Assembly: GCF_038069945.1 (NCBI RefSeq)
Contig: NZ_JBBPEV010000001.1
Coordinates: 558,001 to 622,000, forward strand
Reading direction: 5' to 3'
Origin: Aquabacterium sp. A3
GTDB taxonomy: Bacteria > Pseudomonadota > Gammaproteobacteria > Burkholderiales > Burkholderiaceae_C
Length of the DNA stretch: 64,000 bases
The notes under the pieces: model-generated
The model's input: the letters and a program-made list of their open reading frames with translations, nothing else
Databases searched by the model: none
Told to the model about the DNA's origin: nothing
In this document: positions 11,559 through 48,412 of the stretch, in pieces
Layout: every line of letters starts with the position of its first letter
How positions within the stretch are numbered: position 1 is the first letter of the stretch
Program-made: the position numbers and the translations under genes

Positions 11559-12255
11559 GCTTGATGTTTTCGAAGTCGCCGGTCACCAGGCGCGGCGTGT
11601 GGCCCAACATCTCGATGGCGCTGGCCTCATCGGTCACGGCCGCCGCCGTGGCGGGGTCGGACAAGGCCGCCGCCAGCGCGGGCTGAAGCAGGCCCAGGCG
11701 GAACATTTGTGGCGTCTGGGCGGCCCACTTGGCCGTGCGGTCCACCGTTTGCTGGGCGCGGGGCTCGCCCTGGGGGCCCGGGGCTGCGGCCTTCAGGGTG
11801 TCTGCCAGCGGCAGGGCCAGCAGCCCACCCACCTCATCGTCATCACAGGCCGCGATCAAACGATCAACCCACTCCGGGCGCAACAGGCAACGAGCCGCGT
11901 CGTGCACCAGCACCCAATCATGTGGATGGGCGCCGCGCGCCAGCAGTTCGTTCAGGCCGTTGGCCACACTCTCGGCCCGGCTGGCGCCACCCACGCGCGC
12001 CACCCAGGCCCGATCGCCCGTGAAGCCAGGGGCGTGCTGCTCGAAGGCCGCATCACCCGGCGACAACACCACCAGGGTGGCCGCCAGACGCGGCACGGCC
12101 TGCAAGGCTGCCAGGGTGTGCGCCACCACCGCCCGCCCAGCCACCGGGTGGTATTGCTTCGGCCCACCCACACCGGCACGCTCGCCCACGCCGGCACAGG
12201 GCACCAGGGCAAAACAACGGGGCTGAAACGTGGGTGACTCGACGGTGTATGACAT
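11503..12255 (-). CDS. ispD: 2-C-methyl-D-erythritol 4-phosphate cytidylyltransferase
   Basis: Third MEP pathway step: couples CTP to MEP. The 250-aa protein has the nucleotide-binding N-terminus ALVPCAGVGERAG...PKQY, the VHDAARCLL block, and VTDEASAIEMLGH with the substrate-binding residues. The end LAERLL is normal for the family. ATG 12255 is chosen; a further in-frame start at 12273 is less likely. It is divergent from mfd. Its expected partner ispF lies 4 kb downstream on the same strand, beyond an inserted block. Confidence 0.95.
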   Translation of the reverse strand: MSYTVESPTFQPRCFALVPCAGVGERAGVGGPKQYHPVAGRAVVAHTLAALQAVPRLAATLVVLSPGDAAFEQHAPGFTGDRAWVARVGGASRAESVANGLNELLARGAHPHDWVLVHDAARCLLRPEWVDRLIAACDDDEVGGLLALPLADTLKAAAPGPQGEPRAQQTVDRTAKWAAQTPQMFRLGLLQPALAAALSDPATAAAVTDEASAIEMLGHTPRLVTGDFENIKLTWPGDFALAERLLSTRA

Positions 12256-42599: not shown

Positions 42600-43430
42600 A
42601 TGAGCCGACCCGTCCGCAGCCAGTACGAAGACTTCATGCGCCACGTGCACACCACCGGCGTGCTCAAGACCGACCGCACCGGCACCGGCACGCGCAGCGT
42701 GTTCGGCCACCAGATGCGCTTTGACCTGTCCGAAGGCTTTCCCCTGGTGACCACCAAAAAGGTTCACCTGAAATCCATCATCATCGAACTGCTGTGGTTT
42801 CTGCGTGGGGATGACAACGTCAAGTGGCTGCAAGAGCGCGGCGTGACCATCTGGGACGAGTGGGCCCGTGAAGATGGCTCGCTGGGCCCGGTGTACGGCG
42901 TGCAGTGGCGCAACTGGCCCAAGCCCGATGGCACCCATGTCGACCAGATTGCCGAAGTCGTCAAGCAACTCAAGACCAGCCCTGATTCGCGCCGCATCAT
43001 CGTCAGTGCGTGGAACCCAGGCCTGATCGACCAGATGGCGCTGCCCCCCTGCCACGCCTTCTTCCAGTTCTACGTGGCCCCGCCGCAGACGGAAGGCGCC
43101 AAGCCGAAGCTCAGCTGCCAGCTTTATCAGCGCAGCGCCGACATCTTCCTGGGCGTGCCGTTCAACATTGCGTCATACGCCCTGCTCACCCACATGCTGG
43201 CCCAGCAGTGCGACCTGGACGTGGGCGACTTCATCTGGACGGGCGGCGACTGCCACATCTACAGCAACCACACCGAGCAGGTCGAGCTGCAACTCAGCCG
43301 CACGCCCCACCCCTACCCGGTGCTGAACATCAAGCGCAAGCCCGACTCCATCTTCGACTACGAGTACGAGGACTTTGAAGTGCTGGAGTACGAGCACCAC
43401 CCGGCCATCAAGGCCCCGGTGGCGGTGTGA
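42600..43430 (+). CDS. thyA: Thymidylate synthase
   Basis: Methylates dUMP to dTMP using methylene-tetrahydrofolate. The 276-aa protein has [11 protein letters not shown], the [10 protein letters not shown] loop, the catalytic Cys in [35 protein letters not shown] and the C-terminal valine. It is a few residues longer than the E. coli enzyme owing to a short insertion after FYV. The next gene is folA, 2 bases downstream. Confidence 0.98.
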
Positions 43431-43432
43431 GC

Positions 43433-43951
43433 ATGGCTGCCGCCCGCCCCCAGGTGCTGAGCCTGATCGCCGCCGTGGCCGCCAACGGCGCCATCGGTCG
43501 CGACAACGACCTGCTCTGGCACGACAGCCGCGACCAGAAGCACTTCCGCGCCACCACCCTGGGCTGCCCAGTCATCATGGGCCGCCGCACCTGGGATTCG
43601 CTGCCCGAGCGCTTCCGCCCCCTGCCCGGCCGCCGCAACATCGTCATCACCCGCAACACCACCTGGCAGGCCCCCGGCGCCGAGGTGGCCCACAGTCTGG
43701 ACGAGGCCCTGGCCCTGGTGGCCGAGGCCCCCAAGGCCTTCGTGATGGGCGGTGGCGAGCTCTACGCCCTGGCCCTGCCCCTGGCCGACGAGCTGGAGCT
43801 GACCGAGGTGGACGCCACCTTCGAGGCCGACACCTTCTTTCCAAGCTGGCCTCGCGCGCAGTTCGAAGCCGTGCGCCGTGAAGCCCACCCCGCAGGCCCT
43901 GCCGGCGAGCCCGGCTTTGCCTTCGTGACCTACCGCCGTCTGATCGATTGA
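43433..43951 (+). CDS. folA: Dihydrofolate reductase
   Basis: Regenerates tetrahydrofolate after the ThyA reaction. The 172-aa protein has LIAAVAANGAIGRDNDLLWH with the catalytic acid in the following helix, VIMGRRTWDSLP, GRRNIVITRN and FVMGGGELY. The start is ATG 43433; GTG 43427 would overlap the thyA stop and is also possible. The pairing with thyA is the usual folate-thymidylate operon. Confidence 0.95.
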   Translation: MAAARPQVLSLIAAVAANGAIGRDNDLLWHDSRDQKHFRATTLGCPVIMGRRTWDSLPERFRPLPGRRNIVITRNTTWQAPGAEVAHSLDEALALVAEAPKAFVMGGGELYALALPLADELELTEVDATFEADTFFPSWPRAQFEAVRREAHPAGPAGEPGFAFVTYRRLID

Positions 43952-43962
43952 GCACCCTCCCC

Positions 43963-44742
43963 ATGCAACTTGCCACCTGGAACGTCAACTCCCTGTCTGT
44001 GCGCCTGCCCCAGTTGCTGGACTGGCTGGCCGCCAACCCGGTCGATGCCCTGGTGCTGCAGGAAACCAAGCTGACCGACGACAAGTTCCCGGCGGCCGAG
44101 CTGCAGGCGGCGGGCTACCACGCCCAGTGGTTCGGCCAGAAAACCTACAACGGCGTGGCCCTGCTCAGCCGCGAACCGGCCACCGACATCGTGCGCAACA
44201 TCCCGGGCTTTGCAGATGAACAGGCCCGCGTGATCGCCGGCACCGTGCCCCACCCCACGCTGGGCACCGTGCGGGTGATTGGCGCCTACTTCCCCAATGG
44301 CCAGGCCCCGGGCAGCGACAAGTTCGCCTACAAGATGGCCTGGCTGGAGGCCCTGAACGCCTGGGTGAAAGACGAGCTGCAGCGCCACCCGAACCTGGTG
44401 CTGATGGGCGACTACAACATCGCCCCCACCGACGACGACGTGTACGACCCGGTGGGCTGGAAAGACCAGATCCACTGCACGGTGGAAGAACGCGAGCATT
44501 TCCAGCGCCTGCTGGGCCTGGGCCTGTCGGACGCCTTCCGGCAGTTTGAACAAGCCCCTCGACTGTGGAGCTGGTGGGACTACCGCAACCTAGCCTTCCG
44601 CAAGAACCAGGGCCTGCGCATCGACCACATCCTGTTGAGCCAAGCCCTCCAGCCCCGCGCCACGGCCTGCGTGATCGACAAGGTGCCGCGCAAAAACGAG
44701 CGCCCCAGCGACCACGCGCCCGTGGTGGTCACGCTCGCTTGA
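43963..44742 (+). CDS. xthA: Exodeoxyribonuclease III
   Basis: AP endonuclease and 3'-5' exonuclease of base-excision repair. The 259-aa protein has LATWNVNSL, LQETKLTDDKFP with the metal-binding Glu, LMGDYNIAPTDDDVY, LRIDHILLS and SDHAPVVV with the catalytic Asp-His. ATG 43963 is preferred over an upstream TTG at 43948. It is probably co-transcribed with thyA-folA (11-base gap). Confidence 0.95.
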   Translation: MQLATWNVNSLSVRLPQLLDWLAANPVDALVLQETKLTDDKFPAAELQAAGYHAQWFGQKTYNGVALLSREPATDIVRNIPGFADEQARVIAGTVPHPTLGTVRVIGAYFPNGQAPGSDKFAYKMAWLEALNAWVKDELQRHPNLVLMGDYNIAPTDDDVYDPVGWKDQIHCTVEEREHFQRLLGLGLSDAFRQFEQAPRLWSWWDYRNLAFRKNQGLRIDHILLSQALQPRATACVIDKVPRKNERPSDHAPVVVTLA

Positions 44743-44768
44743 CGCCAGGCGGGACTGCGGCGTAGCAT
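44739..44768 (+). promoter_or_regulatory. Candidate promoter of the attenuator-chorismate mutase unit
   Basis: TTGACG at 44739-44744 overlaps the xthA stop codon, and TAGCAT at 44763-44768 follows at 18 bases. The predicted start is near 44775, a few bases before the leader-peptide ATG at 44778, giving a nearly leaderless leader peptide. Consensus match only. Confidence 0.5.
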
Positions 44769-44777
44769 GGGCACATC

Positions 44778-44858
44778 ATGGATCGCATGCTGAACGCCAA
44801 CCTCATGGTCACCGGTTCGTGGTGGCGCTGCCTTGTTTCAGGCGGCATGCGTTCGTGA
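44778..44858 (+). CDS. Leader peptide with tandem Trp codons (trpL-like)
   Basis: A 26-codon reading frame with two adjacent Trp codons (residues 15-16, bases 44820-44825) in the context GSWWRC, close to the GWWR of the E. coli trp leader. Shorter starts at ATG 44787 and 44805 are in frame. It is placed immediately ahead of competing RNA hairpins and a terminator, which is the architecture of a translating-ribosome attenuator. Trp is the rarest residue, so a WW pair in a 26-codon frame is unlikely by chance. No clear Shine-Dalgarno sequence is seen. Confidence 0.75.
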   Translation: MDRMLNANLMVTGSWWRCLVSGGMRS

Positions 44859-44913
44859 TTTCGGGCCCTGATGGGCCACCCCACCGACAGCCGCCCATCC
44901 AGGCGGCTTTTTT
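44827..44913 (+). promoter_or_regulatory. Trp-type transcription attenuator (1:2, 2:3 and 3:4 hairpins)
   Basis: Four segments can be read. Segment 1 (44827-44833, just after the Trp codons) pairs with segment 2 (44840-44846). Segment 2 (GGCGGC 44841-44846) can instead pair with segment 3 (GCCGCC 44890-44895). Segment 3 (44889-44895) pairs with segment 4 (44902-44908) to form a 7-bp terminator followed by six T. Segments 2 and 4 share the direct repeat CAGGCGGC, so they compete for segment 3. A ribosome stalled on the Trp codons would cover segment 1, free segment 2 and prevent termination. Confidence 0.75.
44889..44913 (+). terminator. Terminator hairpin of the attenuator
   Basis: AGCCGCC (44889-44895), a 6-base loop, GGCGGCT (44902-44908) and a T-run to 44913. 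It also could stop read-through from xthA. It lies 43 bases before the chorismate mutase start. Confidence 0.8.
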
Positions 44914-44956
44914 CATGTAGGCATTCCTGAGATGGGCACACCCTCAGGAGCTTGAC

Positions 44957-45325
44957 ATGACCTCATCGACCCCTTCTCCGCACATCGCTCCCCCCCTCAT
45001 TGCTCAATGCGACAGCCTTGCCGAAGTGCGGCTGCGCATCGACCAGGCGGATCGCTTGCTGGTGGCCTTGCTGGCCGAACGCGCCCACTACGTGCGCCAG
45101 GCGGCCCGGTTCAAACAAACGCCTGCGGACGTCCAGGCGCCTCAGCGGGTGCAAACCGTGATCGGCCAGGCCTTGGCGCAGGCGCGCCAGGTGGGTGCTC
45201 CACCGGCCGTGGTCGAGGCCACCTACCGCGCGATGATCACGGCGTTTGTGCAGGAAGAAGCCCGCGAGCTCGACCGGCTGGCCGACCGGACGGTCAAGGT
45301 CGATGCACAGGCAGCAGCTTCTTGA
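44957..45325 (+). CDS. Chorismate mutase (AroQ class)
   Basis: A 122-aa all-helical chorismate mutase of the AroQ/PchB type, converting chorismate to prephenate. Visible motifs: LAEVRLRIDQADRLLVALLAERAHYVRQAARFK (the Arg, Asp and Lys of helix 1) and the later VEATYRAMITAFVQEE. No prephenate dehydratase domain is fused. AGGAG lies 6 bases before the ATG. In related Comamonadaceae I recall such a gene within trp operons (between trpE and trpG); here it is alone, behind a Trp-type attenuator. Its last 32 bases overlap the end of mutY on the other strand. Isochorismate-pyruvate lyase activity cannot be excluded. Confidence 0.85.
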   Translation: MTSSTPSPHIAPPLIAQCDSLAEVRLRIDQADRLLVALLAERAHYVRQAARFKQTPADVQAPQRVQTVIGQALAQARQVGAPPAVVEATYRAMITAFVQEEARELDRLADRTVKVDAQAAAS

Positions 45326-46415
45326 GCGGCGCGGGCAAGCCCACGCTGTGCAACTGATCCAGCGCCACCCACCGGCCGGTGCCTGCGGCATCCCCCCCCA
45401 CGGCAGGCCCTGCCAGGGTGCCCATCACGGCCGGCCTGGCAGGTCGCGCCAACACCAGGCGCTGGGGGTGCAAACGCCAGTCCAGGTGCGTCAGCACGTG
45501 GTCGATGGGCGGTTGAGGTTCAGGATCGCCCTCGCCCAAGGCCTGGGTCAAGGCCAGCGCCGCCAACTCGGTGTCCAGCAAGGGCAAGGTCCACAACCCG
45601 GCCCACACGCCAGTGTCCGGGCGCTGAATCAGCCACACGTGCTCGTCATGCTCCAGCCACAACCACCAGCTTTCGCGCTTCGAGCGCTTGAGCTTGCGGG
45701 TCTTGACCGGAAACGCCTCGGGGCGGCCTTGCTGGCGGGCTTCACACAGGTCGCTCCATGGGCACACCAGGCAACTGGGCTTGCGCTGGCTGCACACGGT
45801 GGCCCCCAAATCCATCACGCCCTGGGTGTAGGCCGGCATGTCCGCAGCCCGCTGGGGCAGCACCAACTCGGCGGCCTCCCACAAGGCGCGCTCATGGGCA
45901 GCCACCGACAGGTTGCCGCCCCAGGCCAATGCACGGGTCAACACCCGCTTCACATTGCCGTCCAGGATGGCCGTGCGTTCATCAAAGCAAAAGCCTGCGA
46001 TGGCCGCGGCCGTGGATCGGCCGATGCCCGGCAGTTGCGCCAAAGCTTGGGCATTTCCAGGAAAGAGGCCACCGTGGTCGCTGACCACCACCTGCGCACA
46101 ACGGTGCAGGTTGCGCGCCCGGCTGTAGTAACCCAGGCCCGCCCACAAAGCCAACACCTCGTCCAACGAGGCGGTGGCCAGGGCCTGCACGTCCGGAAAC
46201 GCCCTCAAAAAACGATCGTAGTAGCCCAGCACCGTGCTGACCTGGGTCTGCTGCAGCATGATCTCTGACAGCCACACCCGGTAGGGGTCGCGTGTTTGCT
46301 GCCATGGCAGGTGGTGCCGACCTTCCTGACGCTGCCAAGCCACCAGCCGATCAGCCAGCGCGGGGCTCAGGGCCTGGGCTCGCGCCAGCAGGCCCTGCAC
46401 ATCATCGGCACTCAT
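45294..46415 (-). CDS. mutY: A/G-specific adenine DNA glycosylase
   Basis: Removes adenine mispaired with 8-oxoguanine. The 373-aa protein has the catalytic Glu in EIMLQQTQV, the helix-hairpin-helix LPGIGRSTAAAIAGFCF with catalytic Asp in ILDGNVKRVLTR, and the Fe-S cluster ligands C-x6-C-x2-C-x5-C (CSQRKPSCLVCPWSDLC). A C-terminal NUDIX-like domain recognises 8-oxoG. The start overlaps the stop of the upstream dynamin-like gene (ATGA), so translation is coupled. Confidence 0.96.
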   Translation of the reverse strand: MSADDVQGLLARAQALSPALADRLVAWQRQEGRHHLPWQQTRDPYRVWLSEIMLQQTQVSTVLGYYDRFLRAFPDVQALATASLDEVLALWAGLGYYSRARNLHRCAQVVVSDHGGLFPGNAQALAQLPGIGRSTAAAIAGFCFDERTAILDGNVKRVLTRALAWGGNLSVAAHERALWEAAELVLPQRAADMPAYTQGVMDLGATVCSQRKPSCLVCPWSDLCEARQQGRPEAFPVKTRKLKRSKRESWWLWLEHDEHVWLIQRPDTGVWAGLWTLPLLDTELAALALTQALGEGDPEPQPPIDHVLTHLDWRLHPQRLVLARPARPAVMGTLAGPAVGGDAAGTGRWVALDQLHSVGLPAPLKKLLPVHRP

Positions 46416-48412
46416 GAGCTGGCCATCGACCCCACGGATTCGGTGTGTGCATCAGGCATGCCGGACTCATCCGGCGCCGCTGCGGCCTCGGCGGTCGTGG
46501 GCTGCGCCTGCACGATCACCTCACCCACCAGGGTTTGCAAACGGGTCTGCAACTGCAAGACGCGCTCGTCCATGGCCTGCACTTCCTGCAAACGGGCATC
46601 GAGCTCGGTGGACGCCGTCTGGATGCGGTCCAGCGACTCGTAACGTCGCTTGAAATTGCGGCGTCGCTCGCGCAACTGGCTGTCCACCTGCGACGACGCG
46701 GTCTTGTTCCACAACTCGATGTCGTTGCTCACGGTTTCAAACACCACGCGCAAACGGGACACCAGCATGCGACGGAACTGCTCCTGAAAACCGGGCTGCG
46801 CCAGACGAAACGCCTGGCTGAGGCCCAAGTACTGCACATAGTTGCGCTCGATCAGTTGCAGATCCTCGGTGTACTTGCGCACCTCCAGCGGCGCCTCAAC
46901 CGCCAGGCTGAAGCCGAACTCGGCATTGAGCTTGGCATACGACGCCGACAGCATGGCGTGAATCTCGTCGCTGCGCTGCTGGGCTTCTTCGATCAGGGCG
47001 CCAAGCCGCTGACACAGCTCCAGGAACGCCTTTTTGGCCCCCAACGGCAGCCACGAGCCGCCCAGCACCTGCTGCAACTGGTCCACCTCCAGACGCAGGC
47101 GGTCGGCCGACAGGTCCTGCAAGGCATGCCGCAACATGCGCGCATGAACTGACCGCATCGCTTGCAAACGCGCGGTGCACTGCTCGAACTCGCTGGCCTC
47201 GGCCTGCACGCGCTGCAGCATCAACTGAACCTTGCCCGCGCTTTTGCCCTTGAGTCCACGCAGCTCCAGCAACTGATCAGCGTACTGCCGCCGCATCTCA
47301 CCGAAGCGACGTTGCAGTTGCTGCTGCAAGCGCTGCGCACCGTCGCAGGCCGACTGCGCCAGATGCTCGCGCCGCTTGGGCAGCAGGCGCTCCGACAGGG
47401 CCTGCTCAAAGTCTTCAAGCCGACTGCCGTTCAAGGCATCGGCGTCGCCCTGCAGGCGCGCGGCCAAGGCCTGGCGCGCCGATATCGGAAACACATGCGA
47501 GGCGGGGATCTCCAGGGTGTGGGCCACGCTCTCGCACTGCCGCTGAATGACCGCCTGCACCTGCTCGGGCGTGCTCAAGGGGTCGGCCAGGGAGTCGATC
47601 TTGTTGAGTGCCACAAACCGGGCCAGCGCCGGTCCACACAGGTGGTCTCGCCAGATGGCCAGGTCGGATTTGGTGACGCCGGTGTCTGCGCCCAGGATGA
47701 ACACCGTGGCGTGTGCCTGTGGCAGCAAGCCCAGGGTCAGTTCGGGCTCGGTGCCAATCGCGTTGAGGCCGGGCGTGTCCAGCACCACCAGGCCGCGCTT
47801 GAGCAAGGGGTGGGGCAGGTTGATGCGGGCATGTCGCCACGCCGGCACCTCCACCAAGCCCTCGGCATCCTGAGGCGGGTTGTCTTCGGGCGTTTCAGCA
47901 TGCCAAAAGCCCAGCTTCATGGCCTGATCGGTGTCCACGCGACGGGTGCGCATGACCTCGCCCAGCACCTCGGCCATCTGATCCGGGTTGGACAGGTCCA
48001 GATCGAAGCGCTGCCATGCCCCCGGCACCCGGCGATACTCGCTCAGCGATGGCGCTTCAAGCCGGGTCTCGATGGGCAGCAGACTCAGGCCCACAGGCTC
48101 ATCGGCGTCGTAGCCCAACTCCACCGGGCACATGGTGGTGCGGCCCGCCGAGGCCGGCATGATCCGCCGCCCCTTGTCCGAGAAAAAGATGGCGTTGATC
48201 AGCTCGGACTTGCCCCGAGAGAACTCGGCCACGAACGCCACCATGAGCTTTTCGCCCGACAGCCGGTGGCGCATGGCCTCGAACCATTCGGACGAGGCGT
48301 CGTCCAGCAGATCGTGCTCGCGGGCAAAACGCGCCAGCGCCGCCAGGCGTGCATCGGTGTCGCTGCGCCACTGCCCAAGGGCATCCAGTTGGCTGACAAA
48401 GGAGGGCATCAT
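46412..48412 (-). CDS. Dynamin-family GTPase, bacterial
   Basis: A 666-aa dynamin-like protein. G1 is AEFSRGKSE (Gly67-Lys68-Ser69), G2 Thr lies in GRTTMCPVEL, G3 is DTPG (212-215) and G4 is NKID (270-273). Long helical segments from about residue 330 to 640 resemble the stalk, with no clear TM span or PH domain. Bacterial dynamins reshape or protect membranes, but roles are mostly untested. It overlaps mutY by 4 bases, an unexpected operon partner for a repair glycosylase. Either of two adjacent ATGs (48412, 48409) may start it. Confidence 0.85.
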   Translation of the reverse strand: MMPSFVSQLDALGQWRSDTDARLAALARFAREHDLLDDASSEWFEAMRHRLSGEKLMVAFVAEFSRGKSELINAIFFSDKGRRIMPASAGRTTMCPVELGYDADEPVGLSLLPIETRLEAPSLSEYRRVPGAWQRFDLDLSNPDQMAEVLGEVMRTRRVDTDQAMKLGFWHAETPEDNPPQDAEGLVEVPAWRHARINLPHPLLKRGLVVLDTPGLNAIGTEPELTLGLLPQAHATVFILGADTGVTKSDLAIWRDHLCGPALARFVALNKIDSLADPLSTPEQVQAVIQRQCESVAHTLEIPASHVFPISARQALAARLQGDADALNGSRLEDFEQALSERLLPKRREHLAQSACDGAQRLQQQLQRRFGEMRRQYADQLLELRGLKGKSAGKVQLMLQRVQAEASEFEQCTARLQAMRSVHARMLRHALQDLSADRLRLEVDQLQQVLGGSWLPLGAKKAFLELCQRLGALIEEAQQRSDEIHAMLSASYAKLNAEFGFSLAVEAPLEVRKYTEDLQLIERNYVQYLGLSQAFRLAQPGFQEQFRRMLVSRLRVVFETVSNDIELWNKTASSQVDSQLRERRRNFKRRYESLDRIQTASTELDARLQEVQAMDERVLQLQTRLQTLVGEVIVQAQPTTAEAAAAPDESGMPDAHTESVGSMASS

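Follow-up and report, generated by a model that had tools for sequence, protein, structure and literature searches.

The trpL leader of Escherichia coli is a ribosome-mediated attenuator of the trp operon, and textbook attenuators respond to the end product of their own operon. The trpE leader of Bacillus subtilis is under the control of TRAP; there the mechanism is protein-mediated and combines transcription termination with sequestration of a Shine-Dalgarno (SD) sequence. Here we analyzed an RNA element in a 64,000-nucleotide stretch of the genome of Aquabacterium sp. A3 (contig NZ_JBBPEV010000001.1, positions 558,001 to 622,000; the whole stretch is hereafter referred to as the window, and coordinates are those of the window). 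In this element, a leader with tandem Trp codons and a set of competing hairpins precede a stand-alone chorismate mutase (CM) gene. Its sequence organization makes it very probable that the element controls the CM gene by ribosome-mediated transcription attenuation in response to charged tRNA-Trp. Here a Trp sensor would govern the enzyme that draws chorismate into the competing Phe/Tyr branch, and would link two amino-acid branches that are usually controlled apart.

The Trp attenuators of Corynebacterium and Streptomyces are of the ribosome-mediated kind, according to PMC1262725. The element in the window shares with a trp operon attenuator the tandem-Trp leader, the mutually exclusive hairpins, the intrinsic terminator and the position of the leader stop codon beside segment 2. 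In contrast to it, the element precedes a chorismate mutase and not trp genes, its leader is probably read from a leaderless mRNA, and it contains an extra segment 5. For Sinorhizobium meliloti trpL (rnTrpL), PMC7298713 states that the RNA starts at the leader ATG and may serve as a leaderless mRNA. The element in the window would be similar in its RNA start, whereas the Sinorhizobium leader controls trpE(G). Predicted attenuators in front of tyrA-containing operons, mentioned in PMC1173090, are a related case. The open-access literature, as far as its text was available, revealed no chorismate mutase gene under a Trp attenuator; the reviews Xie 2003, Merino 2008 and Vitreschak 2004 may contain an earlier notice.

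Leader and probable attenuator ahead of the chorismate mutase gene

The sole promoter-like match between positions 43900 and 45400 (1.5 kb; 0.1 matches expected) is a sigma-70-type sequence TTGACG-18 nt-TAGCAT at 44739..44768 of the forward strand, to which all features of the element belong. It is followed by an open reading frame (ORF) of 26 codons including the stop, MDRMLNANLMVTGSWWRCLVSGGMRS (44778..44858; ATG at 44778, stop codon TGA at 44856-44858), in which codons 15 and 16, read directly from the sequence, are TGG TGG (44820..44825). Downstream of the Trp codons lies segment 1, GCTGCCT (44827..44833), the partner of segment 2 (44840..44846). Segment 2 can alternatively pair, as antiterminator, with segment 3, AGCCGCC (44889..44895). 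Segment 3 is also the 5′ arm of the terminator, with segment 4 (44902..44908) as the 3′ arm and a T run at 44908..44913. The sequence CAGGCGGC is present twice, at 44839-44846 (segment 2) and 44900-44907 (segment 4). The terminator hairpin occupies 44889-44908; terminator-like sites between 43900 and 45400 number three against 0.8 expected. The CM gene, encoding a protein of 122 amino acids, is located at 44957..45325. Thus, the window contains a short leader ORF with tandem regulating codons, an intrinsic terminator ahead of a structural gene and, in silico, mutually exclusive antiterminator and terminator structures. No family match up to E 1 was obtained in a scan of window positions 43000-47000 against Rfam, whose families include Trp_leader.

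The arrangement suggests the following mechanism. Transcription would start approximately at the leader ATG, producing a leaderless mRNA. When Trp is plentiful, the ribosome would get to the stop codon by segment 2, the 3:4 hairpin would form and transcription would end. When Trp-tRNA is scarce, the ribosome would stall on TGG TGG and cover segment 1, which would let 2:3 form. RNA polymerase would then read on into the CM gene, and Trp shortage would raise CM.

The element is conserved in the genus. A first search of 61 genomes (that of the window and 60 relatives) revealed eight close CM orthologues in Aquabacterium, with 55-72% identity, and two partial ones. A short ORF bearing WW is located upstream in all ten of these loci (for example, MNTRTNHVLLTTSWWRCPHPAA and MNTAFQALNTAQAVQGLWWRRHVPAALRA); the residues ahead of WW vary between loci and WW is constant. 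A contig scan with the single CM protein detected no relative, and its repetition with an alignment of CM proteins gave 74 CM loci. The attenuator layout is present in eight of them, the close ones. Of the other 66 loci, six have some W.W ORF upstream without the layout, and for at least L061 and L065 the upstream DNA available for scanning was shorter than 140 nt.

An RNA model built from 11 loci was run on 42 genomes of the genus, with 100 candidates scored per genome (ten per genome in another scan) and matches listed from about 22 bits upwards, so that weak distant relatives may be missed. Twelve genomes gave a match at 52-85 bits, and the next match scored 35.6. Eighteen weaker matches in the genus, at about 27-36 bits, have no W.W ORF in 16 cases and a chance one in two (L124 and L131); likewise, among eight loci of the wider family at 34-38 bits the W.W ORF is absent in six and a chance one in two. 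A CM profile applied to the same 42 genomes detected ten orphan CMs of full length, at 173-201 bits, and in genome G036 a truncated copy. In genome G025 (locus L015) only a decayed CM frame is left, a remnant that the CM profile missed and that was detected in the first search. The 12 genomes with the RNA element are exactly the ten with an intact CM and these two, and no orphan CM of the window type was found by the CM profile in the other 30. Genomes G021, G023 and G064 contain a PchB-like CM at 67-75 bits without such an RNA match. Locus L014 (G036) and L015 retain leader and attenuator next to a CM frame that is truncated or decayed, and L014 has kept only one of the four cationic residues of the active site.

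In all 12 loci TGG TGG is in frame; it is invariant in the 11 alignment rows and also present in the twelfth locus (L145/L113). The leader frame is kept in every locus, while most other residues of the peptide differ. An earlier reading of the window from its letters alone, hereafter the original prediction, had proposed that a Trp attenuator precedes an orphan chorismate mutase gene, and had named loss of the WW frame among orthologous loci that keep the terminator as the outcome that would refute it. The leader, segments 1-4 and the T run were recovered as proposed, and the WW frame persists in both gene contexts in which the unit is found. The promoter is conserved as well: in the 12 loci the end of a TAnn[AT]T box lies 6-9 nt from the leader ATG (6 or 7 nt in 11 loci, 9 nt in the window), and a TTGAC or TGGAC box is located 17-18 nt upstream of it. 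This spacing makes it very likely that the message begins near the leader ATG and that the leader is probably read from a leaderless mRNA.

Folding of RNA 44775-44917 gave -60.8 kcal/mol (z -2.67; 2 of 200 shuffles equally low). In this fold of bare RNA, without a ribosome, 3:4 was formed and 1:2 was partial, with four pairs inside a larger structure. In the alignment, 92.4% of cells are paired in helix 1:2 and 100% in helix 3:4, where two pairs changed on both sides. For the two helices together 96.5% of cells are paired and seven changed on both sides; none of 500 shuffles was as high for either measure. In 11 loci the leader stop codon lies at -5 to +16 nt relative to the first nucleotide of segment 2. 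When segment 1 was masked and the RNA ended at segment 3, the probability of 2:3 pairing, P(2:3), was 0.83-1.00 in 12 of 12 loci, a figure obtained without a shuffle control. The P(3:4) figure was misregistered and disregarded for the loci whose terminator starts with A (the window, L003, L004, L009 and L014).

Several observations weigh against the attenuator reading. Counted as pairs, changes on both sides number three, a value reached by 10 of 500 shuffles, and for further pair types 93 of 500 shuffles were as high. The helix structure that was scored had been derived from the same alignment rows. Five of the seven pairs of 3:4 never vary, and 2:3 rests on invariant complementarity, since covariation was seen for 1:2 and 3:4 and none for 2:3. 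In full-length equilibrium folds P(2:3) did not exceed 0.19; the mechanism therefore needs kinetic (co-transcriptional) folding, which matters in known attenuators. One of the 12 loci, L015, has an altered segment 2 and a broken T run. The unit is patchy, with an intact CM in 10 of 42 genomes, and the enzyme has decayed in two of the 12 loci that keep the leader, which together indicate that it is dispensable. The best NCBIfam model for the enzyme is an isochorismate lyase (NF005475). Finally, the SD region of the CM gene is predicted to stay paired in the window even with 2:3 forced (unpaired probability 0.02), which would limit output.

Segment 5 and the ribosome-binding site of the chorismate mutase gene

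The DNA between the terminator and the CM gene contains CCTG and then a stretch whose complement is found in segment 3, the loop and the beginning of segment 4. This segment 5, TCCTGAGATGGGC (44925..44937), is also partly complementary to the SD region of the CM gene, CTCAGGAG (44943..44950), its predicted partner, whose unpaired probability in the window is 0.02. The duplex of segment 5 with the terminator region has a predicted energy of -20.1 kcal/mol in the window; across 11 of the 12 loci it ranges from -20.1 to -29.4 kcal/mol. The exception is L015, where the value of -13.0 is no better than in shuffles. Summed over the 12 loci the energy is -267, compared with an average of -144 for shuffled sequences, and none of 300 shuffles was as low. 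The complement co-varies: CCCATC/GATGGG in the group of the window, CCTTTC/GAAAGG in L009 and CCCCTC/GAGGGG in L010.

Segment 5 may also regulate access to the ribosome-binding site of the CM gene. In such two-tier control its pairing with this site would be the off state; in the on state it would instead bind the terminator loop and segment 4, released by 2:3 pairing, and Trp shortage would open transcription and translation together. This scheme is favoured by the match between segment 5 and the terminator region, which in 11 of 12 loci are complementary and have pairs that change jointly, and by the summed pairing of segment 5 with the SD region, which is stronger than in shuffles (-178.7 against -139.5; 0 of 300 as low). 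However, in single loci the SD pairing exceeds shuffles at p<0.05 in only three of 12 (the window, L007 and L008). Moreover, the SD region is predicted to be mostly paired despite forced 2:3, with unpaired probabilities of 0.00-0.21 in 11 loci and 0.47 in L015. We consider two-tier control possible but rather doubtful; the folding models give hints of a translational second layer, which is a lead and not a result. With such a layer the element may resemble the Bacillus subtilis TRAP leader in combining termination with SD control; unlike that leader, the element would be ribosome-mediated, and its second layer is putative.

Chorismate mutases inside and outside trp operons

The original prediction mentioned a CM inside trp operons of Comamonadaceae and offered, as one possibility, that the window locus is a piece of such an operon that had moved with its control region. 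CM homologues (E<=1e-9) are present in 116 of 399 genomes of the family, own genus included, some of them as parts of PheA fusions. Neither trpE nor trpG occurs within 1.5 kb of the 12 best-scoring CM loci from outside the genus (L202-L213). Among 40 loci from lower ranks, 38 have the order trpE-CM or trpE-CM-trpG, in agreement with the original prediction; these 40 were chosen by hand below the 12 best loci, with some skipped, and 38/40 is not a family-wide rate. A W.W leader is located ahead of trpE in 34 of the 38, and the CMs of these trp operons should therefore be Trp-controlled too. The related enzyme under a Trp-codon leader is what these operons share with the window; they differ in having the CM inside a trp operon, in a separate CM clade and in a leader of GAWPWR type. 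No description of trpE-CM-trpG for the family was found in the accessible open-access literature, and the reviews named above may hold an earlier notice.

In the genus, trpE scored over the cut-off in 39 of 42 genomes, and the remaining three (G009, G015 and G030) are 53-82% complete. In the genome of the window trpE is located on another contig and has its own, different Trp-codon leader; two long frames lie there between trpE and trpG (L026:6394-10226), unrelated to Trp synthesis by eye. The genus trpE leader is of the type MF....K..KG..DRGAWPWR in 27 of 30 loci, counted by eye. Two of the three loci without it, L172 and L174, are second trpE-like genes with about 54% identity, and in L198 the start was not located. 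The orphan CM leader, which is of SWWRC type, is quite different from this trpE leader.

In the family, the MFIHRVFITGCSDRGAWPWRKP type of trpE leader (L026, about 11875-11937 on the reverse strand; L173-L201 and L230-L269) is conserved well beyond the Trp codons. By a loose TAnnnT test it looks leaderless in 57 of 60 loci, and only 12 of these loci have a T run of at least four downstream of the leader. For two of the 60, L173 and L178, the leader was taken from the wrong ORF; both loci have a GAWPWR-type ORF (RRAWPWRR in L178). The trpE leader may act without an intrinsic terminator, perhaps via the peptide itself.

Phylogenetic analysis placed the 40 trp-operon CMs in one clade with support of 99-100 and the orphan CMs outside it. 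The ten attenuated CMs group apart, with support of 25 in the presence of an outgroup and 90 in its absence. For the first tree the truncated or PheA-type rows L014, L016, L107 and L111 were left out, as were duplicates and randomly chosen members of the "other" group (123 rows reduced to 95), after which one outgroup was added; the second tree also lacked the outgroup and four long rows, and L015, which has no CM match, is in neither. The CM trees are built on few columns and contain many open forks. In the approximately unbiased (AU) test, orphan and trp-operon CMs as sister groups were not rejected (p 0.839), and the tree joining them was 22.6 log units better than the free quick search.

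A move of the CM gene and its Trp control region out of a trpE-CM-trpG operon could draw on the frequency of such operons in the family, on the sister grouping kept by the AU test and on the leaderless appearance of both leader types. We nevertheless regard it as unlikely. Trp-operon CMs form their own well-supported clade that excludes the orphans, the trpE leader differs from the SWWRC type and mostly lacks a T run behind it, and at none of the eight attenuated loci among the 74 was there a trpE or trpG match. A direct recent escape from the trp operon, and with it the moved operon piece of the original prediction, is thus weakened by the CM tree and by the different trpE leader. True cross-branch control, the other option it raised, fits better, as far as the anatomy of the locus can tell.

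A separate Trp-codon leader precedes trpE in the same cell, so a CM switch is likely to serve balance. Under Trp shortage derepressed anthranilate synthase would drain chorismate, and extra CM would maintain the supply of Phe and Tyr. Given the patchy distribution and the two decayed copies, we infer that the CM switch is a fine-tuning accessory.

The trp operons of related genera represent a second, different wiring that couples the same enzyme class to Trp, and the coupling of Trp to CM probably exists in two wirings. The two suggest that Trp starvation acts by feed-forward to tune the partition of chorismate. A broader proposal can be made only tentatively: that the promoter, the leaderless WW leader, the attenuator and a segment 5 coupling termination to ribosome-binding site access form a self-contained, transplantable Trp-sensing cassette that drives CM, with Trp shortage increasing flux into the competing Phe/Tyr branch through both transcription and translation, and that the same coupling arose separately via CM insertion into the trp operon of related genera. 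In Rubrivivax benzoatilyticus treated with aniline, AroQ was up 5.5-fold and TrpE 5.6-fold, with AroG, AroC and TrpB unchanged, according to PMC3922755. These data fit shared control of AroQ and TrpE and would point to the same coupling if that AroQ were of the trpE-linked type.

The enzyme and its gene neighbourhoods

The window CM is a monofunctional AroQ/PchB-type protein that scores 61.9 bits against Pfam CM_2 (PF01817; cut-off 27), and the 100 proteins among the matches listed in the protein search are all CM_2. In the genome of the window there are two CM_2 proteins, the window CM and one in a 384-residue frame, a PheA-type fusion by eye. The nearest solved structures are those of PchB (2h9c, E 3.5e-9), with a gapless alignment. 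PchB positions 14, 31, 42 and 53 are R, R, K and R in all ten intact copies; we take these four cationic positions to be active-site residues with a catalytic role. The window enzyme shares the Pfam family and the Arg/Arg/Lys/Arg residues with PchB and E. coli chorismate mutase, and differs from PchB in having Glu in place of Gln90. Position 54 (PchB crystal numbering) is Val, or Ala in one copy, in place of the Glu of most CMs. In PMC12329711, Val at this position is also found in PchB and in a Mycobacterium CM, and Glu in the other CMs tested. With Val at position 54, the CM activity of the window enzyme may be modest.

It is conceivable, but quite improbable, that the enzyme is an isochorismate-pyruvate lyase or another PchB-like protein and not a working CM, which would link Trp to salicylate-like chemistry. 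PchB provides the closest solved structures, the lyase model is the best in NCBIfam, and position 54 is Val as in PchB and not the Glu of most tested CMs (PMC12329711). However, all 13 NCBIfam models listed for the window CM are below cut-off, the lyase model at 67 bits against 126. Isochorismate synthase (TIGR00543) scored over cut-off in only two of the 42 genus genomes and in none of the ten with an intact orphan CM, which weakens the lyase role and speaks for CM activity. G021 encodes a PchB protein (L011, 1477-1782, reverse strand) that scores above the lyase cut-off (142 against 126 bits), and no isochorismate synthase over cut-off was detected in that genome.

Upstream of the unit in the window lies an exonuclease gene (43948..44742, forward strand; PF03372), presumably xthA, whose stop codon (44740-44742) is overlapped by the -35 box. 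Downstream, a convergent gene (45294..46415, reverse strand; PF00730 and PF14815) is presumably mutY; given its orientation, the CM gene stands alone, with no same-strand gene behind it in the window. This context, the unit behind xthA, is shared by G026 and G022 and, by eye, G025. In a second context the unit lies between glycosyltransferase-like and polysaccharide-type genes (G005, G002, G028, G019, G003 and G020; G062 was assigned by its flanking frames). Names of these flanking genes were assigned by eye. That the site is only a terminator of xthA, with the WW ORF present by chance, as the original prediction allowed, is hardly credible: xthA does end at 44742 with a good intrinsic terminator next at 44889-44913, but the WW frame is conserved in 12 of 12 loci, the layout is confined to the eight close CM loci of 74, and the same promoter, WW leader and terminator stay intact behind an unrelated gene in the second context. 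In that context a polysaccharide-type gene (assigned by eye) follows the CM gene after a few bases on the same strand (L029:5402-7621) and would also come under the Trp switch.

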